From positions 5,084,001 through 5,148,000 of the forward strand of contig NZ_CP010976.1 in NCBI RefSeq assembly GCF_000949425.1: DNA of 64,000 nt, given 5' to 3'. Positions 6,644 through 48,338 of this stretch are shown one piece after another. The position numbers and the translations under genes were made by a program. The notes under the pieces are model-generated. The model saw nothing but the letters and a program-made list of their open reading frames with translations, ran no database searches and was not told where the DNA came from. Origin of the DNA: Paenibacillus sp. IHBB 10380. GTDB lineage: Bacteria; Bacillota; Bacilli; Paenibacillales; Paenibacillaceae. How positions within the stretch are numbered: the stretch's first letter is position 1; every line of letters begins with the position of its first letter.

Positions 6644-6664
6644 CACTAAGGAGTACAGATATCG

Positions 6665-7885
6665 ATGGCAACTTTCTTTTTAATTATTATTTATTTAGCG
6701 TTTATTAGTCTAGGTTTGCCCGATTCATTGCTTGGATCAGCATGGCCTGTGATGAGTTTGGATCTGAATGTTTCATTAGGAACTGCCGGAATTATTTCAA
6801 TGGTTATTGCAGGCAATACGATTGTGTCAAGCTTGTTAAGCGGTACAGTGCTACAACGTTTTGGTACTGGGAAAGTGACACTTGTGAGTTGTATCTTGAC
6901 AGCAGGAGCTTTATTTGGTTTTGCATGGTCTCCTTCACTAATCTGGTTAGTTATTTTTGCGATTCCACTAGGTATAGGTGCGGGGTCTGTAGATGCAGGA
7001 TTAAATAATTATGTTGCTATTCACTACAAAGCACATCATATGAGTTGGCTACACTGTTTTTGGGGAGTAGGCGCTACGCTGGGTCCATTTATTATGGCTG
7101 CGTCTATTTCTGGTGATAATCTTTGGAGACAAGGCTATCTCGTTGTTGCGGGTATTCAAGTGATCCTAGTCATCATTCTATTCGTTACGCTTCCTTTGTG
7201 GGATAGAGTTGCTAAACGTAATCATGACATAAATATTGAGGCTGAAGATGAGTTGATTAATCAAGAGTTAGAGCAACTTTCTGAGAATACAAAGCCATGG
7301 AGAATAAAAGGGGTCAAACTAGCGATGGTAACCTTCTTATTTTACAGTGGAATTGAAGCTAGCATGGGATTATGGGGAAGTAGCTTTCTTGTAAATATAA
7401 AGAATTTACCTGCAGCAACAGCGGCACAATGGGTTTCTTGGTTTTTCATAGGAATTACAGTTGGCCGAATGATTACTGGATTTATCACGTTTAAAGTGAG
7501 TAGTCGAATGCTGATTAGGTACGGCCAGCTTATCGCTTTATTCGGTACGGTATTGCTTGTGTTACCATTCCCACCGATCCTCTCACTTGTTGGATTTACG
7601 ATTGTAGGATTGGGGTTAGCACCCATATTTCCGTGTATGCTACATGAGACGCCTGTGCGATTTGGGAAAAAGAAGGCTCAGTCCATCATGGGCTTTCAAA
7701 TGGCAGCTGCTTATACGGGGAGTACGCTAATACCTCCTTTTCTTGGATTACTTGCAACTAATACAACCATTAGTATCTTTCCGTGGTTTATTATTATGTT
7801 TGCCATTGTGATGCTCTTGTGTACAGAAAAGCTAAATCATTTCTTGAAGAAATTACATGTGGGAATAAGAGAAAGTATTCGTTAA
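6665..7885 (+). CDS. MFS transporter, sugar-type
   Basis: 406 residues with about 12 hydrophobic segments and a central hydrophilic loop (residues about 185-220, rich in acidic residues), as in FucP/YfkF-like major facilitator proteins. The first segment FISLGLPDSLLGSAWPVM and the conserved VDAGLNNYVA/WLHCFWGVGATLGP region match this group. The gene is cotranscribed with the ROK regulator, which suggests uptake or efflux of a sugar. The substrate cannot be assigned. It ends before a region with a possible small peptide gene. Confidence 0.87.
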   Translation: MATFFLIIIYLAFISLGLPDSLLGSAWPVMSLDLNVSLGTAGIISMVIAGNTIVSSLLSGTVLQRFGTGKVTLVSCILTAGALFGFAWSPSLIWLVIFAIPLGIGAGSVDAGLNNYVAIHYKAHHMSWLHCFWGVGATLGPFIMAASISGDNLWRQGYLVVAGIQVILVIILFVTLPLWDRVAKRNHDINIEAEDELINQELEQLSENTKPWRIKGVKLAMVTFLFYSGIEASMGLWGSSFLVNIKNLPAATAAQWVSWFFIGITVGRMITGFITFKVSSRMLIRYGQLIALFGTVLLVLPFPPILSLVGFTIVGLGLAPIFPCMLHETPVRFGKKKAQSIMGFQMAAAYTGSTLIPPFLGLLATNTTISIFPWFIIMFAIVMLLCTEKLNHFLKKLHVGIRESIR

Positions 7886-8111
7886 AGAGTATTAAGGATG
7901 TTTAGTGAGAAAACTATATCGTATCGAGGGAGTTGAATAAAACAGCGGTAGTCCATAAAGCTACCGAGTAAATCGATAAGCTGTTGGAAACGTAGTTTCG
8001 ATGTCAATGGATCTGAGATGAACGACGTAGAATCGCGAAGCGATAAGATTTATAATCTTGAATATTACGGATATGGAGCTAGTATGTACTTTTAAAGGAT
8101 GATGACATCAT

Positions 8112-8201
8112 ATGATTATTAAAAAAGGGCTACTTTTTGGACTAGTTGGTGGGGTTATCTCGATACTTTTGAAATTTTTTTTTGGAGCTTTTAGGATTTG
8201 A
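8112..8201 (+). CDS. Putative 29-residue hydrophobic membrane peptide
   Basis: A short frame encodes MIIKKGLLFGLVGGVISI followed by LLKFFFGAFRI: a lysine-flanked single membrane segment. AAAGGATG lies about 10 bases before the ATG, and a strong terminator follows 24 bases after the stop. Size, charge pattern and its own terminator resemble type I toxins or regulatory micropeptides, but no antisense RNA could be demonstrated and no family is recognised. The 226 bases before it show no other gene. Confidence 0.4.
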   Translation: MIIKKGLLFGLVGGVISILLKFFFGAFRI

Positions 8202-8224
8202 TTCAGACCAGACATTTTTAAGCA

Positions 8225-8263
8225 AAAGCATTTCTTTTGTAATGAGAAATGCTTTTTATTTTT
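8225..8263 (+). terminator. Terminator downstream of the micropeptide
   Basis: Stem AGCATTTCT / AGAAATGCT followed by TTTTTATTTTT. Confidence 0.8.
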
Positions 8264-8378
8264 GTCAAAATTAAAAGGATATTTCAATAACAATAATAAA
8301 AAACAATATAAATTTATTGTGAAACGATAAATCATATGCTAAGATCATGTTGTCATTAAATAAATGAGGTGTTTTTAA

Positions 8379-8864
8379 ATGAATGTTAAACGAGGTTCAA
8401 CCACTTTTTTAAAGGTAATTATTTTTCTGGCTGGGATTGCAGTGCTTGCTTTGTGTATATTTTTAGTGCCCCATATGGCGAATTTTGCAGCAAAATTGTA
8501 TCCAAATATTGCCCCAATGAAATATCTCGTTTTTATCGTGATGTATGGAGCGGCTGTGCCTTTTTACTTTGCTCTCTATCAGGCTTTAAATCTTTTACGG
8601 TATATTGACGAGAACACAGCGTTCTCGGAATTATCTGTAAAGGCGTTAAAGAACATAAAGTGCTGTGCGATTACAATCAGTGGTTTGTATGTATTAGGTT
8701 TGCCACTCTTTCGTTTTATAGCAAAGAAAGTAGACCCTCCTATTGGATTAATGGGACTTATCATCATTTTTGCTTCGTTGATTATCGCCGTTTTTGCTGC
8801 TATCCTACAACGGCTTCTACAAGAAGCGATTAACATAAAATCAGAAAATGGTTTGACGGTCTGA
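8379..8864 (+). CDS. DUF2975 (YoaS-like) membrane protein
   Basis: 161 residues with four membrane segments (around 12-32, 47-68, 95-115, 125-147). The YIDENTAFSELSVKALKNIK loop is typical of DUF2975. The gene overlaps the spacing of a tiny XRE regulator, as in the yoaS-yozG pair of Bacillus. The function of these pairs is unknown; a membrane protein controlled by, or sequestering, its regulator is a common suggestion. Confidence 0.85.
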   Translation: MNVKRGSTTFLKVIIFLAGIAVLALCIFLVPHMANFAAKLYPNIAPMKYLVFIVMYGAAVPFYFALYQALNLLRYIDENTAFSELSVKALKNIKCCAITISGLYVLGLPLFRFIAKKVDPPIGLMGLIIIFASLIIAVFAAILQRLLQEAINIKSENGLTV

Positions 8865-8874
8865 GGTGGAGGAT

Positions 8875-9093
8875 ATGACAATTATCATTAATATTGATGT
8901 GATGTTAGCAAAACGAAAAATGAGCGTAACGGAGCTTTCGGAGAGAGTTGGAATTACTATGGCGAATCTCTCCAATCTGAAAAATGGGAAAGCAAAAGCG
9001 GTTCGTTTTTCAACATTAGAAGCGATATGTAAGACTTTGGATTGTCAGCCAGGTGATATTTTGGAGTACAAAAGCGACGAAGACACTCAATAA
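8875..9093 (+). CDS. Small XRE-family regulator, YozG-like
   Basis: 72 residues, essentially one Cro/CI helix-turn-helix (VTELSERVGITMANLSNLKNG) ending in the typical LDCQPGDILEY. An in-frame GTG exists at 8866, but homologues in this group begin at the MTIIINIDVM position. AGGTGG is placed suitably for ATG 8875. It is translationally coupled to the DUF2975 gene. Confidence 0.87.
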   Translation: MTIIINIDVMLAKRKMSVTELSERVGITMANLSNLKNGKAKAVRFSTLEAICKTLDCQPGDILEYKSDEDTQ

Positions 9094-9221
9094 AAACAGA
9101 TAACTAATTTGTTTAACTAACGGGACAAGATAGTTGATCAAAGTTAAGCTATGGCTAGGTGAAGACCAACAGACCGGATGGATCATGCCACCTCCCCAAA
9201 TATCCTTAACATCACAACTCG

Positions 9222-9267
9222 GGGAATTGTGGTTTTGCATAGCCACGGTTCGCCTCCATAGGAATAA
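9222..9267. repeat. Short dispersed repeat, copy B
   Basis: Near match to 1521-1564 (GAATTGTGG, CCACG, TTCGCCTCCAT), again immediately before a terminator hairpin. The stretch 9094-9221 shows no gene. Confidence 0.4.
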
Positions 9268-9269
9268 AT

Positions 9270-9308
9270 AAAGGAGCTCACTATTACTTACATAGCAGCT
9301 CCTTTATT
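9270..9308 (+). terminator. Terminator after yoaS/yozG-like pair
   Basis: Stem AAAGGAGCT / AGCTCCTTT with an 18-base loop, followed by ATTG. Bases 9309-9558 hold no intact gene. They include GGGGCTGTCCCATAAGT near 9431, which resembles the ends of some insertion sequences but has no partner. Confidence 0.65.
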
Positions 9309-9558
9309 GTAAAATCATAAGGAAAGCACTTCGAAATAGAAGGTGAAGGGAAATGAATCCTCCTCTATATACTCCTGTGCAAGCACATTCTCCAACCCTG
9401 AGCCTGCCAGGTAGGTATTGTGAATGGAAGGGGCTGTCCCATAAGTAGATTAATCTTCTGACGAGACACTCACTTTTCTAAAAAAGAGACTGATGTCCAA
9501 AAAAAGCAGGTCAAGGTAGTTATCCTTGACTTGCTTTTTGGTATTTCTGTTCCATTGC

Positions 9559-10227
9559 GGCTTTCTGTACTCCAATGCAGATGACTTGTTGAGATGGGTA
9601 AAAGCATTGGCTGACCGTACGATAATTAACAAGGAATCGTATCAAAAGATGATAACCCCCAACGACTTTTTGTGGTACATAGGGGCGTCGGTAGGTTATG
9701 GCTGTTTCGTAAATAACGATCCGGTGAATGAGGTGTTTGTAGATGGAAACATCTATGGTTACACCTGTAGCGTTCACAGCTACGTGAATGGTGAGTTTAC
9801 TGTTATCGTACTAAGCAATAATGATGCAGTACCGACAGGCAGAATTGTAAAGGGGATTAAAAGCATACTGTTATCTCAGGAACCAGAAGTCATGGTGAAA
9901 CCGGATATACAAGAGAATATGGATTATGAAAAATACAAATCATTTACCGGAGATTATTGCTTCCCACCGACAGGTTGGAGGTTTACAATCAGCTTCGAAG
10001 GTGGAGGTTTAAATGTAGATCGGCTCTTCATTCAGGAATCAAAACGGAGGAAATATCTATTAAAACTAGTATCTGAAAGTGCTGACCTCGTTGTTTTTGC
10101 ATGCGAGGTTTGCGATAGCACCTTTACATTCCATATAGATTCCATGGGAAAAATACAAAAAGTAATTTATGCTTGGGATAAATTAGAACTACCCTATAAG
10201 CGGAGACTCGATGCATTACCGATGTAG
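9559..10227 (+). pseudogene. 5'-truncated serine beta-lactamase-like (class C/PBP) protein
   Basis: From GFLYSNADDLLRWVKAL onward the product matches the C-terminal half of serine beta-lactamase/PBP-related hydrolases, including YGYTCSVHSYVNGEFTVIVL, which corresponds to the region after the KTG-like box. A C-terminal beta-rich extension of about 110 residues follows. The N-terminal part with the SxxK and YxN motifs is missing. The first codons of the open frame (9526-9558) are unrelated and there is no ribosome binding site. It is probably a deletion remnant. Confidence 0.75.
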
Positions 10228-10290
10228 TGGAATAAGGGCCCAACTTTAGTGGATTAAAATCAGCAAAATGAGGAGCTAAATTCTGATTTT

Positions 10291-10407
10291 TCAGGAGTTT
10301 GTAATATCATTTCCTTGATCGCTAGTTGCCTTCACATAATGCATAGGGTCAAAATCCTGATTAAGCTTTAATGTAATATGATCCTCGACAGACAATTTTA
10401 TGGTGTA
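10291..10407 (-). pseudogene. Fragment of an Ig-like (DUF5011-type) domain
   Basis: The minus-strand frame reads DHITLKLNQDFDPMHYVKAT followed by SDQGNDITNS and a stop. It resembles the start of bacterial Ig-like repeats that carry a FDP...V.A.D...DIT pattern. No start codon context is present. It is likely the relic of a secreted multidomain protein. Confidence 0.35.
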
Positions 10408-10415
10408 CAAAAAGT

Positions 10416-10456
10416 AAAAGCATGATGAACCCAGTTGGGAACATCATGCTTTTTTC
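10416..10456. terminator. Bidirectional terminator
   Basis: Stem AAAAGCATGATG / CATCATGCTTTT with T-runs on both strands. It terminates the M60 peptidase gene on the minus strand. Confidence 0.85.
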
Positions 10457-10472
10457 TTATTCTAATCGTTAA

Positions 10473-12322
10473 TTATTTTAGCAACCACAAAGCAGGAACG
10501 ATAGGTGGTTCCCAGCCAGTTAGTGTGGTGTGAGCTTGACTACATGTATAGATGGAACCGTTGTAGGTAACTAGCGCTCCAACCGCGTAATATGTGTTTG
10601 GTTTCCATTCGGAAACTGCCGGCACGAAAGTCTCCACTGGATTCAACGTTTTTAGCTTTTTATCATACGCAACGACTTGGTACGTATAATTCGTATTTAT
10701 CTCGACACCTTGGTCCACAAATTGATTTGTACTCGTAAAGCCAACTAGTTCACCGTTTCTGTAGATTTCATAGCCTAAGAGGTCATTCTGATAGGCTTGA
10801 TCGATATTCAAGCTTAATGTGTTGGAGTTAGTCGTTATATTCGTTATACCTACTTCTAATGTCGCATTCTTATCTGCTATTCCTGTGCCTGTATAATTGA
10901 CCACCGTATGATTCAGATACCATAGCTTGTCGGAAGCCGGATATTTAACTAATTTCTCCCTTGTTTCAGGGTTTACGTTGAATCCGTGTCTAGCAAAAAA
11001 GCTGCTTAAATCTAAGCCTAGCACCTCGGAAGAGAATTCGACTAAATATTGCTGTTTCGAGTTATCATCATCAATTGTAAGCGTGACTTTCCTTTCTCTA
11101 TATAGGCTGTTTAACTTGTTCCAGTATCCTGGATAAGCCATCTCCAACTGCCAAAACGGTCCTAATCTAGCATCAAATCCCAGTTTGGCCATCTCCACTT
11201 TATTTTCTGCAATGACATATTTATAGAGTTCAGCTTCATAGTTGATCCTGATCGGATTATCCAGTTCCAGAACATGATAGTCTACTGACATCATCATGGA
11301 TATCATGTTATTCGTAATCTCACCGTACTCTCGTTCTTCAACAGCCATGCGATGCCCAATCTCGTGATTCAAGCCCCAGCCTGGATACGACTTGCTGAAA
11401 TCACTCAAAGGAAGATCTGCCTGTTCGCGTTGGATCCCTACATGGTCACCTGCTGCATACATATAACCCCACGGCTGCATCAATCTTATATTTTCCCTGA
11501 TCAGCTTAGGATCGTGGATCTCACTACGGCCATCCAGACCATAGAAGCCAAAGCTCTTTTGCATCCAGAAGTCATAGCCCGTTAATGTATCCATTGGGTT
11601 ATGGCCCTGCGTAATATATTGATTGTACGCATCGGTAGCCGTTCCGGTAAATACGATTCGATCGCTAACCATCTCAACTACGTCTATTAGTTTACGATCT
11701 TTAACATTTGGATGTGCAACTTTGTCTTGGTCTAGACTCTGTTTATATGCTGTTAAGAAAGATTTAAATTGTTCCACATTCGTAGCCTTCGTCATTACAG
11801 GGAATCTCTCTAACCCTTCAAATCTGATGAGAGGCGCCTTCCCCTGCTCTGCAGGAGTGAATGGATTTACGATGTACACTGGGCCGCCTTTGGTGACATC
11901 AATTGAATATAAACTATCCGTGAGGATCTCCGGTACGGTTATCGTATTGTTACCTGGACGTAGTTCCACTTCTTTGAGATAACTGGACCATGAACCCTCT
12001 TGTTGGAAAAAGACTAACGAAGGCACTTTATCGATTGAATCTACATCCACATAAACATTTGCTTGCCAGGCATAGCGACGAACCCCGTTGGCTGTCTATT
12101 CGTACCTAAACCCATTCTTAAATTTTGCCGGGCATGCTTCTCCATATCTCCATGCTGTTCTGCGGTTATGGTCGTTTCTGCGAAGTTCACTGTACTTTCC
12201 ATCACATTGCTCACTACATTCACACTTGGTAATTGTTCCGCCATAACAAGATCTGGGCTAACTGAAACGTTAAATAGTATTGCTGCGGATGCAGATACCA
12301 CGATTGCTAACATTTTTTTCAC
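10473..12322 (-). pseudogene. M60 (enhancin-like) metallopeptidase with FN3 and chitin-binding domain, frameshifted
   Basis: GTG at 12322 behind AGGAGG opens a secreted protein (signal peptide MKKMLAIVVSASAAILFNVS, cleavage probably after VMAEQ or slightly before). After about 87 residues the frame runs into a stop near 12042. The homologous sequence continues in the -1 frame: PGK, then ANVYVDVDSIDKV. This fits loss of one G. The second frame carries the M60 zinc motif HEIGHRM with the downstream Glu in GEITNN, then an FN3 domain and a C-terminal CBM5/12 chitin-binding domain (YYAVGALVTYNGSIYTC). Intact relatives cleave mucins or insect peritrophic-matrix proteins. It is either a recent pseudogene or a one-base sequence error. 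Confidence 0.85.
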
Positions 12323-12865
12323 GTTGACTTCCTCCTATTTTTTAATGACTGCCTACCTGAACACGTGAAAAATCTACCCCAAAGGAGTAGCATAATATAC
12401 TCTTTGGCAACAGGCTGACATAGTTATATAACCTTAGTCCCTGTAGTTTTGTGTCCCTATATTTCTATAGATTTTCCACATTTTTCTATTTGCTTCTATC
12501 AAACAGTAACACGCTAATATACCAATTTTATAAACAGTTGGTAGTATATTCAAAGTAGGCATTGGTACTACTTGACCTTTTTTGGATACTTTAGAACTAG
12601 ATGATCAAAGATGATTCGAATTATCAATAGGGCAAAATGATCCACAGCAAGCACCCGTCCCGTTATCTGCGAGTCGAAACTGCAGTAATTAGTCATCATC
12701 GGCTTTGATGGCCTGACAGAACCTATGTAACTCACAAAACTCGTGACTTTCTGAACAATATAATGGAATTTTCATCTTGAAAGGAAAAAATATATTTGCT
12801 CTGAAATGCGTACCATACGTTATACTGGCTATAAATTTTTTAATTCAAGAAATGAGGGAAGCAAC
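12323..12865. other. Intergenic region, divergent promoters
   Basis: About 540 AT-rich bases between two divergent genes. An imperfect inverted repeat, CCAAAGGAGTA / TACTCTTTGG, lies at about 12372-12408. TTGCTC and TATACT near 12795-12825 could serve the HAD gene but are 19 bases apart. No gene was seen. Confidence 0.4.
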
Positions 12866-13753
12866 ATGAAGATAATCGCAATTGACTTAGATGGTACTCT
12901 GTTATCTGACAACCTAACTATCCAAGAAAGAGACGTAATCGCCTTAAAGAAAGGACAAAAGCAAAATCATATTGTAACAATTGCAACAGGAAGGGCTTTA
13001 TTTGATGCAAAACACATTATGAATAAATATAATTTGAATTGTCCAATCATTGCATCGAACGGAGCTCAAATCTATGTAGATAACAAAAAAATATCCGAAC
13101 ATTTTATAGGTCCAGATGTAACTCAAGCTATCATACAATGGCTAAACAAAGAAAATATCTATTTTCAAGTGTATTTATCTGACAAGATTGTTGTATCAAA
13201 TCAGGGAATTCATCAACTAGAAAAGCAGCTAAATGATATAGTAAGTCAAGATCCCCATTTTAACAAAGATGTGTTTTGTGAATCTATTAAAGCTCAAATC
13301 TATCAATACGGTTTAGAAGAAGTTTCTGGTATAATTAACTCTATTGATTTTGTCATCAAATTTATGATCGTTTCTCCAAGCAGAAGTAAGTTAAAGCAAG
13401 CTAAAGAATATTTTAGTCAAATGGACGGGTGTGTTGTAGCTAGCTCTGGATCATTCAACCTAGAAATTATGAGTGCAGGAGTAAATAAAGGATTAGCACT
13501 ACATAAACTTTGTGAATATTACAAAAAAACTGTAGCAAATGCAATAGTGATTGGTGACAATCTAAATGATATGCCTATGTTTAAAGTAGCAGGAATAGGG
13601 ATAGCCATGGGAAATGCAGATGAAAGGCTTAGTGAGGTGGCTACTTTCAGAACTTTATCGAATAATAATTGTGGTGTGGCTTATGCTTTCGAGCATTATA
13701 TCCAAACGTCTGAGAAGGAAAACGACAACTTGGTTAGGAAAGCGAAATCATGA
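12866..13753 (+). CDS. HAD-superfamily sugar phosphatase, Cof type
   Basis: 295 residues with HAD motif I AIDLDGTLL at the N-terminus, motif II TIATGRA, a C2-type cap domain and motif IV VIGDNLNDMPMFKVAG near residue 230. Such enzymes dephosphorylate small sugar phosphates in the cytosol. The open frame begins at 12806, but the first 20 residues do not fit, and GAGGGAAG precedes the ATG at 12866. It overlaps the following YczE gene by 4 bases, and a LacI regulator and a NagA-like deacetylase follow. An amino-sugar phosphate is therefore a plausible substrate. Confidence 0.9.
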   Translation: MKIIAIDLDGTLLSDNLTIQERDVIALKKGQKQNHIVTIATGRALFDAKHIMNKYNLNCPIIASNGAQIYVDNKKISEHFIGPDVTQAIIQWLNKENIYFQVYLSDKIVVSNQGIHQLEKQLNDIVSQDPHFNKDVFCESIKAQIYQYGLEEVSGIINSIDFVIKFMIVSPSRSKLKQAKEYFSQMDGCVVASSGSFNLEIMSAGVNKGLALHKLCEYYKKTVANAIVIGDNLNDMPMFKVAGIGIAMGNADERLSEVATFRTLSNNNCGVAYAFEHYIQTSEKENDNLVRKAKS

Positions 13754-14397
13754 ACTATTTCTTTCAAAGATGTCTGATTTATATTATTGGATTATTTGTT
13801 TTATCTCTAGGTATTGTTTGTATGATTAAATCCAATGTAGGAATTGCTCCATGGGATGCCTTGAATGTTGCATTATCAAAACGAATCGGACTTTCAATTG
13901 GATCATGGGTTTTCATTGTTGGTGGAATCCTTATTTTTGTAAATAGCCTGATAAAAATGAAGCCTCCTAATATAGCTGGTTTTATTCCTATCTTCATTAT
14001 TGGAGCTTTTTTTGACCTTTTAAACTTAAAGATTCTATCTTTTATAAAAGTAGATATTTTACTTTTTCAATGGAGTTTATTTTTTGTAGGACTATGTATA
14101 CTGGCCTTGGGAATTGCTATTTACTTGCGGGCATCTTTTCCCTCCGTACCAAATGATGAGTTGATGTTAGCTATCACTGCACGAACAGGTTGGGGTATTA
14201 ATGTTACAAAAACTATTGGGGAAACTATAGGTTTTGTACTTGCAATTGTACTCCAAGGTCCGGTTGGATTAGGAACCATTATTGTACTTCTATGTCTTGG
14301 GGTATTCGTAGGTCTGTTTGATCAACTATTACACAAGGTGGGAATGCCACGTTCTATTTACAGTAAGGCGTACAGTCAGGAGAATGTCGATTTATAA
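13750..14397 (+). CDS. YczE/YitT-family membrane protein
   Basis: 215 residues with five to six membrane segments. The N-terminal VCMIKSNVGIAPWDALN and later SFPSVPNDELMLAI motifs are typical of YczE-like proteins. Their transport or regulatory role is unknown. Its ATGA overlap with the HAD phosphatase shows translational coupling. Confidence 0.85.
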   Translation: MNYFFQRCLIYIIGLFVLSLGIVCMIKSNVGIAPWDALNVALSKRIGLSIGSWVFIVGGILIFVNSLIKMKPPNIAGFIPIFIIGAFFDLLNLKILSFIKVDILLFQWSLFFVGLCILALGIAIYLRASFPSVPNDELMLAITARTGWGINVTKTIGETIGFVLAIVLQGPVGLGTIIVLLCLGVFVGLFDQLLHKVGMPRSIYSKAYSQENVDL

Positions 14398-39692: not shown

Positions 39693-40673
39693 ATGGGGAA
39701 TGCCATTGAAGTCCGTCATTTGGTGAAAAATTTTGAGTATTACAAGAAAGAAATTGGAATGAGGCAATCTCTCAAAAACCTATTTTTCCGCAAAAAATTA
39801 GTGAAAGAAGCGGTTAATGATGTGTCGTTTTCCATTGCAGAAGGCGAAATGGTTGGTTTTCTCGGCCCAAATGGAGCGGGGAAGAGCACTACTCTGAAAA
39901 TGTTATCTGGCATCCTACACCCAACTTCAGGAAGTGCAAGCGTTTTTGGATATACTCCATGGGAGCGTAAGAAACAATTTAAACAGCTATTTTCAATTGT
40001 TATGGGGCAGAAAAGCCAGCTTTGGCCTGATTTGCCGGCGGGAGAGTCTATTTTCTTGAATAAGTGTATTTACCAAGTATCTGACGAGGATTATCATCGA
40101 ACACTTGATGAGTTATCCGGACTGTTGGATGTAAAGGAATTACTGGGTGTGCAAGTACGTAGACTCTCCTTTGGAGAACGGATGAAGATGGAATTGATTG
40201 CGTCCTTGATTCACAGGCCCAAGCTGATGTTCCTAGATGAGCCGACTATTGGATTAGATATTATCTCCCAACGAGCCGTCCGTAATTTTCTGAAATATTA
40301 TAATGAACAATATCATGCTACGGTCATATTAACGAGTCACTATATGAAGGATATTGAGGATCTTTGTCCGAGGGCCATCCTGATTAACGCAGGTACCATT
40401 GTATACGATGGTGAACTCAAAAAGATTAATGCATATCATGATGAGAGAAAATTGATCAAGCTTCACTTTTCGGAACAGATTTCATTGGAACCACTGAAAG
40501 CATTCGGAGAAGTGAAAGAGTTTGACGGTTACTATGCTGTAATCGAGGTGGGAAAAGAAGAAGTCCGAATATGCTTGCAGCAATTTTTGTACAGGTTTCC
40601 TGTTGTGGATTTCACGATTGAAGATCTGACGATTGAAGATGGAATTGCCGAACTCTATAGAGGTAGCGCATGA
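39693..40673 (+). CDS. ABC-2-type exporter ATPase
   Basis: 326 residues. Walker A LGPNGAGKSTTLKML, signature RLSFGERMKMELIASL, Walker B LMFLDEPTIGLD and the H-loop LTSHYMKDIE are intact. A basic insertion before Walker A (KNLFFRKKLVKEAVNDVSF) is typical of ATPases paired with DUF990-type permeases. The longest frame starts at 39627; GAGAGGG is 7 bases before ATG 39693. The two following permease genes overlap or abut it, making a complete exporter for the biosynthetic genes downstream. Confidence 0.93.
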   Translation: MGNAIEVRHLVKNFEYYKKEIGMRQSLKNLFFRKKLVKEAVNDVSFSIAEGEMVGFLGPNGAGKSTTLKMLSGILHPTSGSASVFGYTPWERKKQFKQLFSIVMGQKSQLWPDLPAGESIFLNKCIYQVSDEDYHRTLDELSGLLDVKELLGVQVRRLSFGERMKMELIASLIHRPKLMFLDEPTIGLDIISQRAVRNFLKYYNEQYHATVILTSHYMKDIEDLCPRAILINAGTIVYDGELKKINAYHDERKLIKLHFSEQISLEPLKAFGEVKEFDGYYAVIEVGKEEVRICLQQFLYRFPVVDFTIEDLTIEDGIAELYRGSA

Positions 40674-41476
40674 CTAGGAATAAATATGTTGTTGCTTTTC
40701 GTATTGGCTTTCAAAGCTCACTGGAGTATCGATTTAATTTCTTTCTCTCACTGCTAAGTGCTGTCTTTCCGATGATTGTGCAATATTATATGTGGACAGC
40801 GGTATATGCAAGTGCTGGGGAGAATGCCGTATTCGGATATTCTTATCGTGAAATGATTATGTACACCATTCTAGCTGCTGTTGTTTCCAAGCTCGTCATT
40901 ACGAATATTGAACACTCTATTGCTGAAGATATTAAGAGCGGAGGGTTGAACAAATATATTATCCAGCCGATCTATTACTTTGGTTTTCGAATCAGCTCGT
41001 ATATTGGACAACGTCTCATTTATTTCACCATCTCTCTGTTCATCATCCTTGCTTTAACCTACGCATTAAATACTTTCTATAACCTTCACACTGAAGAAGA
41101 ACGAGTGATCATCTTTTGCCTTTCCTTAATCCTGTCTATTGTTCTTAGCTTTTTGATTTCATACGCAATTTGTGCCTGTGCTTTCTGGTTATCCGAGATA
41201 TCCTACTTCTTCGTAGTTACTAGCTTACTGGTTAATATTATGAGTGGCGGAATATTTCCATTGGAAATTTTCGGAGAGGGGCTGCAACGGTTATTTCGGT
41301 TAATGCCCTTTCATTATATGATTTACTTTCCTGTGAATATATTGAATGGCAAAATATCCGGGGAGTTGATCTGGCAGGGAATTATCGGACAGGGTGTGTG
41401 GATTGCTCTGCTGCTGCTACTCTGTCATTTTGTCTGGAAGTGGGGGATGAAAAGGTATTTAGGGCTAGGAGGCTGA
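40670..41476 (+). CDS. ABC-2-type permease 1 (DUF990-like)
   Basis: 268 residues with six membrane segments and the N-terminal FRIGFQSSLEYRFNFFLSLL pattern of the ABC2_membrane_6 family. It overlaps the ATPase stop (ATGA) and is followed 3 bases later by the second permease, so both halves of the channel are encoded. Confidence 0.9.
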   Translation: MTRNKYVVAFRIGFQSSLEYRFNFFLSLLSAVFPMIVQYYMWTAVYASAGENAVFGYSYREMIMYTILAAVVSKLVITNIEHSIAEDIKSGGLNKYIIQPIYYFGFRISSYIGQRLIYFTISLFIILALTYALNTFYNLHTEEERVIIFCLSLILSIVLSFLISYAICACAFWLSEISYFFVVTSLLVNIMSGGIFPLEIFGEGLQRLFRLMPFHYMIYFPVNILNGKISGELIWQGIIGQGVWIALLLLLCHFVWKWGMKRYLGLGG

Positions 41477-41479
41477 CCA

Positions 41480-42289
41480 TTGAACTTTGTCATCGAACTG
41501 CGAAGACATTTGTATATCCTTGCATTATTCGCGAAAAACTCTATCATTTCGCAGATGGAATACCGGGTTAATTTTATTACAGGAATATTCGTGGAAGCGG
41601 CTTTCCTTATGGCTAAGCTGCTGTATGTGATGGTCGTGTACAAAACCAATGTACATATTGATGGTTTGACGCCAGATACGATCCTGATGTTTATGGGGAC
41701 TCATATTCTGCTCACAGGCATTTATATGGGATTGTTCTACAACAATTTTCAACGATTAACCGAATATGTTCGCAACGGAATGCTCGATTTAATGATAGTC
41801 AAGCCCATCTCGTTGCAATTTCTGGTCTCAGTAAGGCACATCGAGGTGGGCATGCCGATCCCGAATATCATTGCAGGGTCGGTCATGGTCGCAATAGGCT
41901 GGAGTGCTTCTGATATTCCGTTTACCTTTCTCAATGTGGCTTTATTTATTACCTTTATGTTCATAGCTACGATCATGACGTACTGTATCATGATTATCCC
42001 TTCTCTGCTGTCGTTTTGGTTCCTAAATACATCGGCAGCCAGCGAGATTTCTTATTCGGTATGGGACGCCAACAATATGCCGCATTTGATCTACAACAAA
42101 TGGATTCAGCGTATTGGGACATTTATTATTCCGGTGTTTATCATTACAAACTTCGCACCTCTAGTTGTCCTCCATAAACTAACCAAGATTGAAATCGTTT
42201 GGGGTATTCTGGCACCCATTGTATTTTTCTTGCTGATTCGGGTTTTGTGGAAGCGGGCATTGAAGGTGTATAGTAGTTCAAATCTGTAA
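41480..42289 (+). CDS. ABC-2-type permease 2 (DUF990-like)
   Basis: 269 residues, about six membrane segments, again with an early SQMEYRVNFITGIFVEAAFL segment typical of this family. TTG start behind TAGGAGG. It forms a heterodimeric channel with the preceding permease. Confidence 0.9.
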   Translation: MNFVIELRRHLYILALFAKNSIISQMEYRVNFITGIFVEAAFLMAKLLYVMVVYKTNVHIDGLTPDTILMFMGTHILLTGIYMGLFYNNFQRLTEYVRNGMLDLMIVKPISLQFLVSVRHIEVGMPIPNIIAGSVMVAIGWSASDIPFTFLNVALFITFMFIATIMTYCIMIIPSLLSFWFLNTSAASEISYSVWDANNMPHLIYNKWIQRIGTFIIPVFIITNFAPLVVLHKLTKIEIVWGILAPIVFFLLIRVLWKRALKVYSSSNL

Positions 42290-42337
42290 TCTGTCATGAC
42301 ATATGTATTAACTAGAATGAGATGAGGAGATAAGTAT

Positions 42338-43618
42338 ATGGAAGACAGCGGTATTCACTTGGAACCATTTCGCAGGGCGAGATCTGGACGCGTTCTATGG
42401 CATGCGAACATCAATGAAGATCAACACTGGAATGAGACTGCACTATTCCCTTCATTTGCGAATCCGCAGCAGCTAACGTTAATTGAACAGCAGGAACAGC
42501 AACTACTTTGGATTGCCGAGCCGCAGGATATAGTTTGGCTTCGGCATCCGCCCGACCCACAATTTTTGGAATATATAAAGAGTTACCGGGATAAGTTACC
42601 GCAAATCTGTGTTACATCAGATGCCGGTCAGGCGGCTGTATGTACGGCGGGGTTATCGCCTGAGACATTTACCTTCATGCCTTTTATGTTGACCTCAGAC
42701 AATGTCGCACTAGCTGAACAATATGAATGGGGTTTGATCGATTCCAATGCGGAATTAGTGAAGCACATGAACAGCAAATATGTCACAAGAAGACTGGCCG
42801 AAGAAAACGGATTTCGCGTGACACAGGGCAGATTTTGCAGTAATCCGCAAGAGCTGATTGAAGCGTACAGTGAAATACGGGCTACTGGATTTACCAAGGC
42901 TGTACTCAAGCAGGCATACGGATCTTCCGGCAGGGGTCTGACGATGATCGAGAATGAGGATAAATTCAGGCAATTGTCTTCATATATTCGTAAGCGGACA
43001 ACCTGCTTTGAATTGTTACTGGAAGCTTGGCACCCAATCAAGCACTCTTTAAACGCACAGCTATGGATTGAGCCCGATTCCGTTCATCTGCTTGCGGTTA
43101 CCGAACAGAGAATAAATAATTACGGAGTATACATTGGCACGAATTATACACCGCATTATGACGCCGCTGTAATGGAAGAATATCGTGCGGAAATGCTGCG
43201 GTTGGGAGCTGTACTTAGGCAACGTGGTTATGCAGGAATTGCTGGGATAGACTCTATCGTTGATGATAAAAATAATCTATATCCGGTTATTGAAATTAAC
43301 GGAAGATTTACACAGGTTACCTACTTGCTACCCTTTATTGAAACGTTACTTCCATCCTATAAATATGTAGAAAGCCGCTATATTCATATGGAGACAAGTG
43401 ATAAGTTCTCCTTTGACGAGATCAAATCCAGATTTGAAGCTGAGCTTCAACCTGATCTGGAACATCAATTTACCATCTACACATTCGCCTTCTATAATCA
43501 ACCACACACGAACCTATATCGCATCTTTATTCTATTTTACGGAAACGAAGCCGCCAAACTGAACGATATGCTGTATAAGTTTGAGCGTTTCACCATGATG
43601 CAAACTTCCTCTTTGTAA
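42338..43618 (+). CDS. ATP-grasp ligase, candidate aminoacyl-carrier-protein ligase
   Basis: 426 residues. An N-terminal pre-ATP-grasp domain (about 1-135) is followed by an ATP-grasp fold: KAVLKQAYGSSGRGLTMI (Lys187, Lys191 and the glycine loop), ELLLEAW, and the metal-binding AGIDSI and VIEINGRFTQ (Asp305, Glu319, Asn321). ATP-grasp enzymes form an acyl phosphate and pass it to an amine or thiol. Because a free carrier protein and a BtrH-like transferase are nearby, loading of an amino acid onto that carrier, as BtrJ does in butirosin synthesis, is an attractive hypothesis. Peptide or amide ligation is the alternative. AGGAG precedes the ATG. Confidence 0.85.
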   Translation: MEDSGIHLEPFRRARSGRVLWHANINEDQHWNETALFPSFANPQQLTLIEQQEQQLLWIAEPQDIVWLRHPPDPQFLEYIKSYRDKLPQICVTSDAGQAAVCTAGLSPETFTFMPFMLTSDNVALAEQYEWGLIDSNAELVKHMNSKYVTRRLAEENGFRVTQGRFCSNPQELIEAYSEIRATGFTKAVLKQAYGSSGRGLTMIENEDKFRQLSSYIRKRTTCFELLLEAWHPIKHSLNAQLWIEPDSVHLLAVTEQRINNYGVYIGTNYTPHYDAAVMEEYRAEMLRLGAVLRQRGYAGIAGIDSIVDDKNNLYPVIEINGRFTQVTYLLPFIETLLPSYKYVESRYIHMETSDKFSFDEIKSRFEAELQPDLEHQFTIYTFAFYNQPHTNLYRIFILFYGNEAAKLNDMLYKFERFTMMQTSSL

Positions 43619-43765
43619 GTTAATGAAACTTATGCCCCTCACACTCACTTTTCAAGTCATCCTAGAATAGTTCCTTATAGCTACATAGATTGTACTAAAA
43701 TTTGCGCTCCCAAGGGTTCGTCTTTAGTTCAATCTATATCCAACCCCAATTTAATAAGGAGGGAA

Positions 43766-44878
43766 ATGCTCTTGACGGAGACCGTAACACTTCTCAGCGC
43801 AGGAAATTCACTAGGGGTATATATACCGGCAAAGATTTTACAATTACAGCTCCGTGATCAAGGCGTACCCGCTGACATCTGTATGTTGGAGCATTTGTAC
43901 GATCGTCAGACACTGGAGAAAATCCCAAGTTACCGCAAGGCCTTCCATGACAGCTTCGCTGTTGCCAAGATGGGTTACAAATTGGCCAAAGACAGCCGTA
44001 ACAGTTTCGACGAGAATAACGTAGCCTCGCTTCTACAGCAATGGAAGCAAGGTGGCAGAAGGAGGTTTCTTGCTCTTACGGGGTTCTGGATTCCGATTTT
44101 GGAACGCTATCGGGAAATGATGGATTCAGTCAACTTAGACATCCGTCTAATTCGTCTGGATGCAAGCGATACGCCTTCATTCGCAGTATATGGGGAGGCA
44201 TGTGACCAGTTCAACAACGTATGGTTATATTCGGCCGGTGAGAATCGGATACTCCAAACCATTATGGTTAGCGAGGAGGAGCCAGTTCCATTTCAGGAAA
44301 GGGAGAGCCGCTATCTGATTCACGGTGGCGGCTGGGGAATCGGTACATATAAGGACAAAATTACTGAACTGACGGCCAGCGGTATTGCACTTAATATCAT
44401 CGCTTATTACAACGAGGATATTAAACCTGAGACTTATGATTCTCATAAGTCTGCGTCTCACCGATATTTTATGCTGGATCCGTCATGGAGCCCTTGGCAG
44501 CGTAATGCTGTCAACGAATTTGATTTTCCACCGTTTGCAGAAGTTAGTCAGGGGGAGGAATGCATATTTGAAAGCGGCGGCAGTTATCCAAAGGCGTTCG
44601 AGGTAATGCGGCATAGTTTAGGTATTATAAGCAAGCCAGGGGGCGCGACATTGCTAGATTCACTGGCCTCTGCAACGCCTTTAATATTTCTGGAACCCTT
44701 CGGAGATCACGAACGGTCGAATGCGCAGCTGTGGGAATCGCTTGGATTAGGTATAAGTTATGATGCTTGGAAAGAACAAGATTACGCAGTGAACGTACTA
44801 GAGGACATCCATCGCAACCTTCTGAACGCAAAGCATAAGACCTGCAATTTGATTAGTACGATCACGAGGGGGAGGTGA
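43766..44878 (+). CDS. GT-B-fold glycosyltransferase-like protein
   Basis: 370 residues. The N-terminus (TLLSAGNSLGVYIPAKILQL) and the C-terminal donor-site-like segment GIISKPGGATLLDSLASATP with FLEPFGDHERSNAQLW match the layout of UDP-glycosyltransferases such as MurG/UGT. The classic HCGxxS histidine is replaced by SKPGGAT, as in GT28-like proteins. It would add a sugar to the pathway product or an intermediate. ATG 43766 is only 3 bases from GGAGG, while TTG at 43772 has 9 bases and may be the true start. The 147 bases before it contain a possible relic of an oxidoreductase 3' end. Confidence 0.75.
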   Translation: MLLTETVTLLSAGNSLGVYIPAKILQLQLRDQGVPADICMLEHLYDRQTLEKIPSYRKAFHDSFAVAKMGYKLAKDSRNSFDENNVASLLQQWKQGGRRRFLALTGFWIPILERYREMMDSVNLDIRLIRLDASDTPSFAVYGEACDQFNNVWLYSAGENRILQTIMVSEEEPVPFQERESRYLIHGGGWGIGTYKDKITELTASGIALNIIAYYNEDIKPETYDSHKSASHRYFMLDPSWSPWQRNAVNEFDFPPFAEVSQGEECIFESGGSYPKAFEVMRHSLGIISKPGGATLLDSLASATPLIFLEPFGDHERSNAQLWESLGLGISYDAWKEQDYAVNVLEDIHRNLLNAKHKTCNLISTITRGR

Positions 44879-44947
44879 TAGATACTGGCGTACAACCTCA
44901 AAGTAAAAGCGCTTTAACATGCAGTGCAAATAAAAGGAGGAATTTAA

Positions 44948-45253
44948 ATGATTCAATCCATTATGAATATTTTATGTGATATTAAGGAATCCCCAGAGAT
45001 GATGTCAACGTTAAATCCGCAGACGAATATTATTCAGGATGTTGGTTTGGATTCATTGCAAATGATCAATTTTGTGTTGGCGATTGAAGACTTCTTTGAT
45101 CTGGAGATAGATTATGAGACTTTCGACTACGAGCATATGAGCACGATAGAGACTTTCGTCTCTTTTTTAGAGAAAGAGAAAGCACCGTCAGCTAACGGAG
45201 CAAGTAGAGAAGTCATGAATGAATCATCCAATTTATCAAAGATAGGAGGATAG
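44948..45253 (+). CDS. Stand-alone acyl/peptidyl carrier protein
   Basis: 101 residues with a four-helix carrier fold and the phosphopantetheine site DVGLDSLQMINFV (Ser36). The sequence between helices II and III (LEIDYETFDYEHMSTIETFV) is typical of D-alanyl or amino-acid carrier proteins. A 20-residue polar tail follows. It sits between the glycosyltransferase and the radical SAM gene and would carry the building block as a thioester. No NRPS or PKS gene accompanies it. Confidence 0.92.
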   Translation: MIQSIMNILCDIKESPEMMSTLNPQTNIIQDVGLDSLQMINFVLAIEDFFDLEIDYETFDYEHMSTIETFVSFLEKEKAPSANGASREVMNESSNLSKIGG

Positions 45254-45256
45254 CCC

Positions 45257-46429
45257 ATGCAACCAAAAACGGAAATTAAATTTGACCGAAGTACGTTTCA
45301 AAATGTGAAGCGGACGATTCAGAACATGTCTATGACGAGCAGAGAACAAAGGCACGATCCGACGTTCGCATTGGATATTCCTGATGATGTCGGCATCAAG
45401 CTGAACAATGGCTGTAATCTGCGCTGCAAGCATTGCTTTGAATGGGCGAATGATGGCTTTCATCACGATATGGCTAAAGATATTAAAAATCAAGAGATTG
45501 AGTTGTCCTTACTTGAAAGTATCCTTGAACAAACTCGTGAGCGAAAATCAAGGTTGTTTATATGGGGCGGTGAACCGCTATTTTACAGTAAATTTGATGA
45601 ATTTGCTGACTTGCTAGCCAAGGATCCACGCAATACGACAATCTGCACCAATGCGCTACTTATCGAGCAAAAGCTGGATTCCATTCTGAAAATTTCAGAG
45701 GATATGACACTGCTGATCAGCCTCGATGGGTTCGAGGTGGAGAATGACGCCATTCGCGGAAAAGGTACTTTCAAGAAGGTTATTTACATGGTGAACATGT
45801 TGCTGGAATTGCAGCGGACAGGTGAATATAAGGGCAGAATTTCTATCGGTCTGACCATTAGTGATTCAATGGTAACGAGGCTGTACGAGTTTATGGAGTA
45901 TTTCGAGAATCTTGGTGTGGATAGCGTATATTTCGTATTCCCTTGGTATATTACTGACGATGTTGCCGTAAAGATGGACGGTTACTATGAAGAACGCTTT
46001 TCTTGGCTTGAAGCGGCTCAGCAGCAACAGCGTTATAGCTGGCATTCCTTTTCATTCCGTGTTTCCGAAGAGAATATAGAGCCGCTAATTGCTGAAATTG
46101 ACCGGATCAATAAGCGGGTATGGCAGAACAGAATCCGTTTTCAACCTGCATTGGAATTAGATGAGGTAAGAGATTTTGTTCTAGGCGCAGAAAAACCGGC
46201 GATGAAGCGCGGTCAATGTTTGTCCATTGCGAACCGGCTGGATGTTATGCCCGATGGACAAGTAAATCCATGCAAGTTCTTCCCTGAGTTTACATTAGGT
46301 GATCTGAACGATACCGATCTGAAGGAAGTTTTCCATAGTGAAAATTTCCGAAAGCATAGGGAAGTGCTGGGAGAAGGATTAACGCCAATCTGTTCAAGAT
46401 GTGTGCTGTTATATAACTATGGCCGTTAA
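45257..46429 (+). CDS. Radical SAM/SPASM-domain enzyme
   Basis: 390 residues. The CxxxCxxC cluster motif NGCNLRCKHC (Cys53, 57, 60) binds the [4Fe-4S] cluster, GGEPLF is the SAM-binding GGE motif, and a SPASM-like tail holds GQCLSIANRLDVMPDGQVNP with further Cys in NPCKFFPE and ICSRC. SPASM enzymes typically modify peptides or carrier-bound amino acids. It begins 3 bases after the carrier protein gene, so the carrier-bound unit may be its substrate. The N-terminal 45 residues before the motif are unusual and may contact the carrier. Confidence 0.9.
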   Translation: MQPKTEIKFDRSTFQNVKRTIQNMSMTSREQRHDPTFALDIPDDVGIKLNNGCNLRCKHCFEWANDGFHHDMAKDIKNQEIELSLLESILEQTRERKSRLFIWGGEPLFYSKFDEFADLLAKDPRNTTICTNALLIEQKLDSILKISEDMTLLISLDGFEVENDAIRGKGTFKKVIYMVNMLLELQRTGEYKGRISIGLTISDSMVTRLYEFMEYFENLGVDSVYFVFPWYITDDVAVKMDGYYEERFSWLEAAQQQQRYSWHSFSFRVSEENIEPLIAEIDRINKRVWQNRIRFQPALELDEVRDFVLGAEKPAMKRGQCLSIANRLDVMPDGQVNPCKFFPEFTLGDLNDTDLKEVFHSENFRKHREVLGEGLTPICSRCVLLYNYGR

Positions 46430-46503
46430 CGAATACAAAAGATACAACGTTTGAAGTAACCGAACTGTGATCCTGATTGTAGACGGTTTGAATAGTTAAG
46501 CCG

Positions 46504-46548
46504 CAAAAAAAGATGACTTCTGAAATTTATCAGGAGTCATCTTTTTTT
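46504..46548. terminator. Bidirectional terminator between radical SAM and BtrH-like genes
   Basis: Stem AAAAAAGATGACTTCTGA / TCAGGAGTCATCTTTTTTT, near perfect. Confidence 0.9.
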
Positions 46549-46580
46549 AATGTCCACGGGTACACCAACATGAAGATTGC

Positions 46581-47570
46581 TTATTTCAGGACTAATCTAC
46601 CGGATGTGAGCGAAGGGATAGATAAGCTAGGATCAAAGGCGTCACTCGTTAATATTTGAAAGCACTCGATTTCCTTATGCTTAAGCTCATCACATAGTTT
46701 GGACAGTTTTTTTCGATTGATCTTGCCTCTAAAAGTAGCTTTGGTAAAAGCATTCTTCATCCGTTCTGCGATTTGACTGCATTCATCCAAGCGGCGCACC
46801 ATTTCCTCAGAGGCATTAACAAATTCCAAAAACCGGCTGAAAAGATATCGGGAACCAGATATCAGGCTTAAAGTGTGTTCCAGTTTTTTATAGAAGGCGC
46901 GTGGATCTGCCGGTTCTTGATAAATCATATGGTGAATGTGGTCGTATATCCGAAAGTCGTCAACCAGGCTTTGACGCCATGCTGCAAACTTTTGCTGAAG
47001 AGCTTTTTGCATCTCCTGGAAATTCCATGGATCGAGGTGAACAGTGGTCACAATTCGAGTCCACTCCCGGTCACCCATGAAGATTGCATTCTTAATGCAG
47101 CTGCTATCCACGTAATCGCAATACTTTGGATAATTGTCTTGCAGGAGATAGAGAGTTTTATCTTCGGTTATTTGACAATCTTTGAGAAGTACGGAATGCA
47201 GGGAGCCCTCAATAAGATAATCTTTGCCAAAGATCCAGTGCGGCAAATAATCAAGATTGGCCCAAATATACACAAATTGATTCTCTCCTAGCCTCTCTTG
47301 CAGCAAGAGATCTAATTCTTCTTTGGTCTCTATGTAATGCTCCTCCATATGAATATTCAAAAGCATGATGTCCTCACGAGTGATGGAGTAGCCATCATAC
47401 GCCCAGCGATCTTTGTTTTGCACAAACAAATGATCATAGAACAATTGCGTACTCTCATATGAATTATAGAACAGCAGTTCAACGGGGATATTTTGTTCAT
47501 GAAAGAGAAGAATGAGCTGGGTTTTGCGACATTCGTAAAAATATTGGACATAGGTCATGAGTTCGGACAC
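46581..47570 (-). CDS. BtrH-like putative cysteine acyltransferase
   Basis: 329 residues with no strong family match by eye, but with the pattern of the BtrH N-terminal fold (papain/C39-like): an early Cys in FYECRKTQLILLFH (Cys14) followed by a FYNSYEST segment, a DLDYLPH-like strand (ANLDYLPHW), His125 in GSLHSVLLK and Asp145 in YLLQDNYP. In butirosin biosynthesis BtrH moves an acyl group from carrier protein to an amino group. The gene converges on the carrier-protein operon from its own promoter. The C-terminal half is helical and of unknown role. The assignment rests on motif order, not on an alignment. Confidence 0.55.
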   Translation of the reverse strand: MSELMTYVQYFYECRKTQLILLFHEQNIPVELLFYNSYESTQLFYDHLFVQNKDRWAYDGYSITREDIMLLNIHMEEHYIETKEELDLLLQERLGENQFVYIWANLDYLPHWIFGKDYLIEGSLHSVLLKDCQITEDKTLYLLQDNYPKYCDYVDSSCIKNAIFMGDREWTRIVTTVHLDPWNFQEMQKALQQKFAAWRQSLVDDFRIYDHIHHMIYQEPADPRAFYKKLEHTLSLISGSRYLFSRFLEFVNASEEMVRRLDECSQIAERMKNAFTKATFRGKINRKKLSKLCDELKHKEIECFQILTSDAFDPSLSIPSLTSGRLVLK

Positions 47571-47720: not shown

Positions 47721-48338
47721 TCAAAGTAACTTAATTAAATCTTGTGGTTTTTCAAACTTATATCTAGTCTGTATATGTTCATGATTCTTACATCCCCATA
47801 GAGCTAAACCGAAATCTACTCCAGCATCTCTTGCACATTCATAATCGTAAATGGTATCTCCAATATAAATAGATGTCGCAGGATCAGCACCAGAGATCTC
47901 CAAAAATTTTAGTATGGGTTCAGGGTTGGGTTTGTGTTTCTCCGTGTCATTTGCACAGACCGTATGTGTTAAATACCTCATCAGACCAAATGGAACAAAA
48001 TCACTGATTAATTCTTCGGTTGTCTTCGAAGTGACTATACCTTGGACGATATTCCTACGCTTAAGAGTATCCAATACATCGGAAATTCCATTGAATACCT
48101 CAATTGAACTAAAGAAGTCTTTCATGAAGTAATTCCAACGCTCATTACCTTTATGGATGTCTTTGATTCCTAGCTGTGGTAATGCTGTAGATCCTGGGAT
48201 TCCAAGTACAAAAGTAAGGTCTTGTATTTCAGTAACTCTGCCATAATCTGTTTTTAGCATTTTTTGTAGGGAACCTAAAACGGCTCTCTCTGTATCTATT
48301 AACGTGCCATCAACATCAAAAATAACGGTATTATACAT
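47721..48338 (-). CDS. HAD-family phosphatase (PpaX/phosphoglycolate phosphatase-like)
   Basis: 205 residues: motif I IFDVDGTLIDTE, motif II GIVTSKT, Lys in EKHKPNPEPIL and motif IV SIYIGDTIYDYECARDAG. A small helical cap (C1) lies between motifs I and II. Such enzymes hydrolyse small phosphates or pyrophosphate in the cytosol. AGGAGG precedes the ATG. It is separated by a terminator from the BtrH-like gene, so a role in that pathway is uncertain. Confidence 0.9.
   Translation of the reverse strand: MYNTVIFDVDGTLIDTERAVLGSLQKMLKTDYGRVTEIQDLTFVLGIPGSTALPQLGIKDIHKGNERWNYFMKDFFSSIEVFNGISDVLDTLKRRNIVQGIVTSKTTEELISDFVPFGLMRYLTHTVCANDTEKHKPNPEPILKFLEISGADPATSIYIGDTIYDYECARDAGVDFGLALWGCKNHEHIQTRYKFEKPQDLIKLL

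Follow-up and report, generated by a model that had tools for sequence, protein, structure and literature searches.

A 64,000-nucleotide stretch of the Paenibacillus sp. IHBB 10380 genome (contig NZ_CP010976.1, positions 5,084,001 to 5,148,000), referred to here as the window, carries at positions 39693–47570 a gene set that probably builds an exported small molecule on a free acyl carrier protein (ACP). Seven codirectional genes are met by one convergent gene; this layout, described in an earlier note made from the sequence alone, is borne out by the open reading frames (ORFs) and by Pfam. The features are as follows, with the loci used for comparison designated by L numbers throughout.

39693..40673, + strand: ATPase of an ATP-binding cassette (ABC) exporter (ABC_tran, 93.5 bits; 84% in L034, 89% in L054).
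40670..41476, + strand: permease 1 of the ABC exporter (ABC2_membrane_6, 76.3 bits).
41480..42289, + strand: permease 2 of the ABC exporter (ABC2_membrane_6, 134.0 bits).
42338..43618, + strand: BtrJ-type ATP-grasp protein, predicted to activate an acid and load the ACP (ATP-grasp_3, 33.0 bits).
43766..44878, + strand: protein with a predicted GT-B glycosyltransferase fold, without a Pfam family.
44948..45253, + strand: free ACP with the motif GLDSLQM (PP-binding, 31.1 bits; orthologue in 60/63 loci anchored on the radical S-adenosylmethionine (SAM) gene).
45257..46429, + strand: radical SAM protein with a twitch/SPASM-type C-terminal domain, termed rSAM-A (Radical_SAM 64.0 bits, SPASM 41.8 bits).
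46504..46548, no strand: imperfect inverted repeat with runs of A and T between the convergent genes, recognized by eye; a possible bidirectional terminator.
46581..47570, − strand: 329-residue cysteine acyltransferase of the BtrH/CcbD/CtaG fold, a predicted off-loading amide synthase (from homology, fold and residues).

The exporter ATPase, both permeases, the ATP-grasp protein, the ACP and the radical SAM/SPASM protein all score above the curated Pfam cut-offs; the GT-B and 329-residue proteins have no Pfam match above cut-off. No NCBIfam model reaches its cut-off for the ATP-grasp, GT-B, ACP, rSAM-A (best 25 of 79 rows) or 329-residue proteins. The cluster had been described as free of nonribosomal peptide synthetase (NRPS) and polyketide synthase (PKS) modules, and Pfam finds no such domain in the eight window proteins besides the carrier protein itself. 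Two phosphopantetheinyl transferases (PF01648) are encoded in the genome. The inverted repeat is absent from the output of the promoter/terminator scan, in which promoter-like and terminator-like sites showed no enrichment over shuffled sequence.

The SPASM enzyme could instead act on a ribosomal precursor peptide, with the other proteins as accessories; peptide maturases are common among the 25 NCBIfam rows mentioned above, all far under cut-off. The constant partners of rSAM-A are, however, an ACP and an ATP-grasp protein, and none of nine ORFs of at least 15 residues in the intergenic gaps, the region covered by this search, was convincingly conserved in five related loci (best E-value 0.003, for an ORF that overlaps the 329-residue gene at its start; next 0.059). 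The absence of a precursor peptide, also asserted in the earlier note, therefore holds for the gaps, and peptide maturation is disfavored and considered highly improbable.

The comparison of the ATP-grasp protein with BtrJ is supported. It falls in the same clade as the ATP-grasp protein of the butirosin-type locus L045 (37% identity) in quick trees with long-branch warnings (support 97 for a 12-row set and 99 for a 14-row set), and shares 39–41% identity with five further ATP-grasp proteins from outside the conserved gene cassette described below. Residues K147, K191, E229, D305, E319, N321 and R323, which we take to function in ATP binding, are invariant in 10/10 aligned sequences.

The 329-residue protein had been proposed to be BtrH-like from the order of its Cys, His and Asp residues. 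A Pfam BtrH_N match is lacking, and the protein is not among the results of a PF14399 search of the genome; the proposal is upheld by homology, fold and residues. By sequence, the protein is a homologue of the BtrH of the butirosin-type cluster (24% identity to L045 BtrH, E-value 1e-20 by tblastn), which itself lies above the BtrH_N cut-off (35.3 bits versus 29.7). The predicted model, with a mean local confidence (pLDDT) of 83.5, matches the folds of CtaG, CcbD and the AziU2-U3 complex, and C14, H125 and D145 are invariant in 7/7 aligned relatives. The earlier note had allowed for a protein with no similarity to BtrH/C39 folds; such similarity was found in both homology and fold.

Other proteins with BtrH_N matches, one of them sub-threshold, are encoded elsewhere in the same genome (C1). 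At approximately 88 kb (L002, 139–2238), a single ORF combines a ketoreductase, a carrier and a BtrH_N domain, and the ORF that follows has a condensation domain; a BtrH-type domain is apparently used here within a PKS/NRPS line. At approximately 1.35 Mb (L001, 1465–2445), a complete BtrH_N and DUF4872 protein lies near a PadR-like regulator and an FGE-sulfatase-domain protein (3.4 kb viewed). At approximately 4.17 Mb (L003, 934–1932), a 332-residue protein next to a major facilitator superfamily (MFS) transporter matches BtrH_N below threshold (21.8 bits against a cut-off of 29.7).

Nine orthologues of rSAM-A retain CxxxCxxC together with four cysteines in the C-terminal part. The C-terminal part matches BtrN in profile comparison against the PDB (7.8e-9), and entries of BtrN are the only ones that match best in this domain. 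The core matches 5wgg (2.5e-11), presumably CteB, and also resembles SkfB. The GT-B protein is predicted to adopt a MurG/UGT-like GT-B fold across its full length, and no Pfam domain was found in its homologues among the matches listed (120 of 480). A scan of the phylum detected it in 4/398 genomes, three from the family of the window (one being the window genome) and one outside.

Conservation of the locus was examined from the radical SAM side and from the GT-B side. A scan of genome contigs anchored on rSAM-A returned 80 loci, of which 56 form a family (L054–L108, L115); all but one have E-values of 1e-102 or below, and the exception, L108, is a contig-end fragment (1e-33) in which the family radical SAM gene is cut. 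The other 24 loci (L109–L114, L116–L133; E-values no better than 3e-29) were regarded as encoding more remote radical SAM proteins and excluded. The 56 family loci, the window and six loci from an ATP-grasp scan make up a set of 63; L035, L037, L051 and L052 were omitted because their contigs are already represented by L057, L056, L092 and L074. Loci that are nearly identical (L036/L038/L057; L069/L070) were kept in the counts and thinned for trees (119 to 84 rows). Gene presence was scored with our own profiles within 9–9.5 kb, the ATP-grasp profile merging two types of this protein (see below); counts of ABC ATPases and condensation domains include some unrelated or weak matches (e.g. L064, L108, L078).

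The four core proteins are found in nearly all of these loci: rSAM-A as the anchor, GT-B in 62, ACP in 60 and ATP-grasp in 59 of the 63. The three ACP misses include L065, where an ACP is seen by tblastn, and L046, where a 496-residue open frame (12812–14299) spans both a Gfo/Idh/MocA oxidoreductase and the ACP, either a fusion or a translational coupling. An oxidoreductase occurs in 36 loci and a second radical SAM protein in 20 (21 calls, L102 having a single radical SAM gene in two pieces). Among the off-loading enzymes, BtrH-like proteins are present in 36 loci, proteins resembling β-ketoacyl-ACP synthase III (KAS III) in 10 and condensation-type proteins in 12 (one, L078, weak). The hosts are Paenibacillus, Thermoflavimicrobium, Clostridium, Streptomyces, Streptantibioticus, Micromonospora, Kibdelosporangium, Kribbella, Rhodococcus and Sphingobacterium, together with metagenome-assembled genomes (MAGs) labelled Chlorobiaceae, Nostoc, Lachnospiraceae and Clostridia.

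In the reverse direction, the GT-B gene is present in 95/295 sampled genomes of the window's family, its own included. Sixty loci were inspected, from 60 of the 95 genomes and picked by hand rather than at random; ATP-grasp is present in 60, ACP in 59, rSAM-A in 58, BtrH-like proteins in 56 and ABC-2 permeases in 42 (at stricter scores, ACP 57, BtrH-like 54 and permeases 40). In 15/60 the GT-B protein is identical to one in the radical SAM-anchored set; the 45 new loci contain, at the stricter scores, ATP-grasp in 45, ACP in 43, rSAM-A in 43, BtrH-like proteins in 40 and permeases in 29. The genes thus co-occur in other genomes, the absence of which the earlier note had considered, and the combination with a SPASM enzyme, unfamiliar to that note, belongs to a recurrent family (63 and 60 loci) rather than to a singleton. 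Chance adjacency of the cassette genes is ruled out by the conserved linkage in both search directions. Approximately one third of the sampled family genomes carry the GT-B gene, nearly every inspected locus has the cassette, and two of its four core proteins, GT-B and the core-type ATP-grasp protein introduced below, are poorly named.

The frequency of ABC-2 permeases in the GT-B-anchored loci would also suit decoration of the cell envelope, in which the acyl unit is exported or ends up on a surface polymer or glycolipid and no metabolite is released, as would an MBOAT O-acyltransferase downstream in four related loci (L036, L038, L056, L057). This enzyme is nevertheless found in merely 4/63 loci, the annotated Streptomyces locus has MFS transporters instead, and the patchy distribution of the GT-B gene fits a secondary metabolite. 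Decoration of the envelope is therefore regarded as unlikely. In the same four loci, a KAS III-like protein, an unassigned protein of approximately 350 residues and the MBOAT protein follow the radical SAM gene (15542–19122 in L036), and no BtrH-like gene was found at the locus.

The enzymes at the two ends of the presumed pathway vary more than the ACP, GT-B and rSAM-A proteins. Between the window and seven sister loci, sequence identity is 54–68% for rSAM-A, 39–46% for GT-B and 39–52% for the ACP, but only 16–18% for the ATP-grasp protein. A branch of 1.21 (support 100; quick tree, long-branch warnings) separates the BtrJ-type clade from the core-type ATP-grasp proteins, and the two types are distant homologues (hhalign probability 99.8 over 401 columns). 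Five of the 63 loci (L053, L071, L072, L074, L101) contain two ATP-grasp proteins, one per clade. As judged from these sequence comparisons, a BtrJ-type ATP-grasp protein has taken the place of the core type as the predicted activating enzyme in the window's subclade. One example of the core type reached no Pfam or NCBIfam cut-off. Among 20 regions fetched with the ATP-grasp protein, nine contain GT-B and rSAM-A (L034–L038, L046, L050, L052, L053) and 11 do not within the region; the ATP-grasp family is therefore broader than the cassette.

The predicted final acyltransferase likewise is of variable type: BtrH-like, KAS III-like or condensation-type. At least six changes of type, without distinction of gain from loss, are counted on the 84-row rSAM-A tree, as expected for alternative off-loaders. 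The count leaves aside rows that have no off-loader or that have two types, and disregards weak condensation matches from non-actinobacterial loci; the several subgroups of BtrH-like proteins are pooled as a single type. Both the ATP-grasp and rSAM-A trees are quick searches without bootstrap, with long-branch and odd-composition warnings. In the seven-row clade of the window, BtrH-like proteins occur in the window, L054, L034 and L046, and KAS III-like proteins in L055, L036 and L056.

The cluster of the window, called compact in the earlier note, lacks two genes of its close relatives. A second radical SAM protein and a Gfo/Idh/MocA oxidoreductase are present in L034, L036, L046, L055 and L056, and neither is present in the window or in P. 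pini (L054). Searches of the genome for relocated copies returned, for the second radical SAM protein, no orthologue but only rSAM-A itself (23%) and two partial matches (26–30%), and for the oxidoreductase only generic matches (22–33%). Since P. pini has the same compact form, an inherited reduced version is more likely than a recent accident.

Distances between proteins co-vary over 52 loci (rSAM-A with GT-B, r 0.87; rSAM-A with ACP, r 0.83; none of 500 shuffles as high). This indicates shared inheritance, not function. The correlation bears on a second arrangement, in which loading and transfer are unchanged while GT-B and rSAM-A build an acceptor: a glycoside would be formed and oxidized by the BtrN-like rSAM-A, and its amine acylated by the BtrH-fold enzyme, as in butirosin or lincosamide biosynthesis. 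The close tracking of rSAM-A and GT-B distances by those of the ACP speaks against it, as do the oxidoreductase and ACP in one frame in L046 and the better E-values of the rSAM-A core with 5wgg and SkfB than with BtrN. We consider this arrangement possible but less probable.

Gene content, motifs, homologies to butirosin-type proteins, the predicted GT-B fold, linkage, and the exchange of enzymes beside a steadier ACP/GT-B/rSAM-A core were computed here. They are consistent with an NRPS-free, thiotemplated pathway of loading, modification by rSAM-A and GT-B, off-loading and export, to which we assign about an even chance. From its family, the BtrJ-type ATP-grasp protein would load the free ACP with an activated carboxylic acid, which is probably an amino acid. 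The twitch-type rSAM-A may oxidize, epimerize or otherwise remodel this unit on the carrier, and a sugar may be added from a nucleotide donor by the GT-B protein. The fold, residues and homology of the 329-residue enzyme suggest that its Cys14 would receive the finished acyl group, which would then be handed on to an amine in the manner of CcbD, and the ABC exporter would release the product. That the cassette defines a new assembly class, in which glycosylation and radical modification take place on an (amino)acyl unit tethered to a free ACP and diversity arises by swapping the ATP-grasp and off-loading enzymes, is put forward tentatively, at somewhat less than an even chance.

Several observations weigh against this pathway. 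The gene of the 329-residue protein runs towards the operon from the opposite strand, and its product lacks a Pfam match; lacking the second radical SAM protein and the oxidoreductase, the window may carry a curtailed or degenerate pathway; and GT-B and rSAM-A may both act on the acceptor. Eight of the 63 loci have no recognized off-loader. ATP-grasp is absent in L055, L076, L099 and L102, with L099 retaining only rSAM-A and GT-B. L055, a MAG whose rSAM-A protein is 81% identical, has no ATP-grasp, GT-B or ABC ATPase in 21 kb, through either genuine loss or a fault of assembly; the core is thus not invariable. L180 and L205 have GT-B without rSAM-A; both contain a BtrK-like decarboxylase and an ATP-grasp protein, with weak ACP and BtrH-like calls, and possibly represent a variant pathway. 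As separate observations, L055 contains permeases, both radical SAM proteins, the oxidoreductase, ACP and a KAS III-like protein at 5716–13164, and in L102 the ORF after the radical SAM gene resembles, by eye, an AMP-forming ligase, perhaps another activating enzyme.

The proposed steps can be compared with three known systems. The butirosin side-chain pathway employs a free ACP (BtrI), the ATP-grasp protein BtrJ, and BtrK, BtrO, BtrH and BtrG, and butirosin biosynthesis also includes a glycosyltransferase. The free ACP, BtrJ-type ATP-grasp and BtrH-type transferase are common to the window, and BtrN is the twitch radical SAM enzyme of butirosin. In contrast, the window ACP, GT-B and 390-residue rSAM-A belong to a separate conserved cassette, and the pyridoxal phosphate-dependent decarboxylase, luciferase-like monooxygenase, GGACT and 2-deoxy-scyllo-inosose (DOI) synthase-like proteins of L045 have no counterpart among the eight window proteins. 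Since the decarboxylase, monooxygenase and GGACT partners are absent, loading of glutamate should not be assumed.

In the closthioamide system (CtaD/CtaE/CtaG; PMC6772006), loading of a free carrier protein is the predicted task of the ATP-grasp protein CtaD, and the role of CtaG is likewise predicted; the window shares an ATP-grasp protein of such predicted function and a transferase of the peptidyl transferase's fold. No CtaC-like protein was recognized among the eight window proteins, which include a radical SAM and a GT-B protein instead. In lincosamide biosynthesis (PMC12945683), CcbD, and LmbD likewise, passes a carrier-bound amino acid to an amino sugar; this carrier-dependent cysteine amide synthase has the same fold, and the pathway includes the S-glycosyltransferase LmbT. 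Lincosamide pathways use an adenylation domain, where the window has an ATP-grasp protein, in addition to a radical SAM protein. The combination of a free carrier, an ATP-grasp protein and a BtrH-fold transferase is thus of a kind already known from closthioamide and butirosin, with CcbD and LmbD alike. No description of an ACP/GT-B/twitch radical SAM core with exchangeable activating and off-loading enzymes was found among the papers listed in searches of open PMC text. The cassette offers a handle on exported metabolites, on possible radical SAM chemistry with carrier-bound substrates, and on evolutionary swaps of off-loading enzymes; the ATP-grasp/ACP pair is small and readily testable by intact-protein mass spectrometry.

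A plasmid search with GT-B returned two Streptomyces records, one of them annotated. An actinobacterial version of the cassette lies on the Streptomyces sp. BB1-1-1 plasmid NZ_CP134205.1 (L147, 10279–17459), in the order radical SAM, ACP, hypothetical protein (at the position of the core ATP-grasp), Gfo/Idh/MocA oxidoreductase, APH-type phosphotransferase, hypothetical protein (GT-B), condensation-domain protein and deoC, with rfbA and rfbB nearby. In the window itself, a HAD-type phosphatase gene (47721–48338) adjoins the gene of the 329-residue protein on the same strand.

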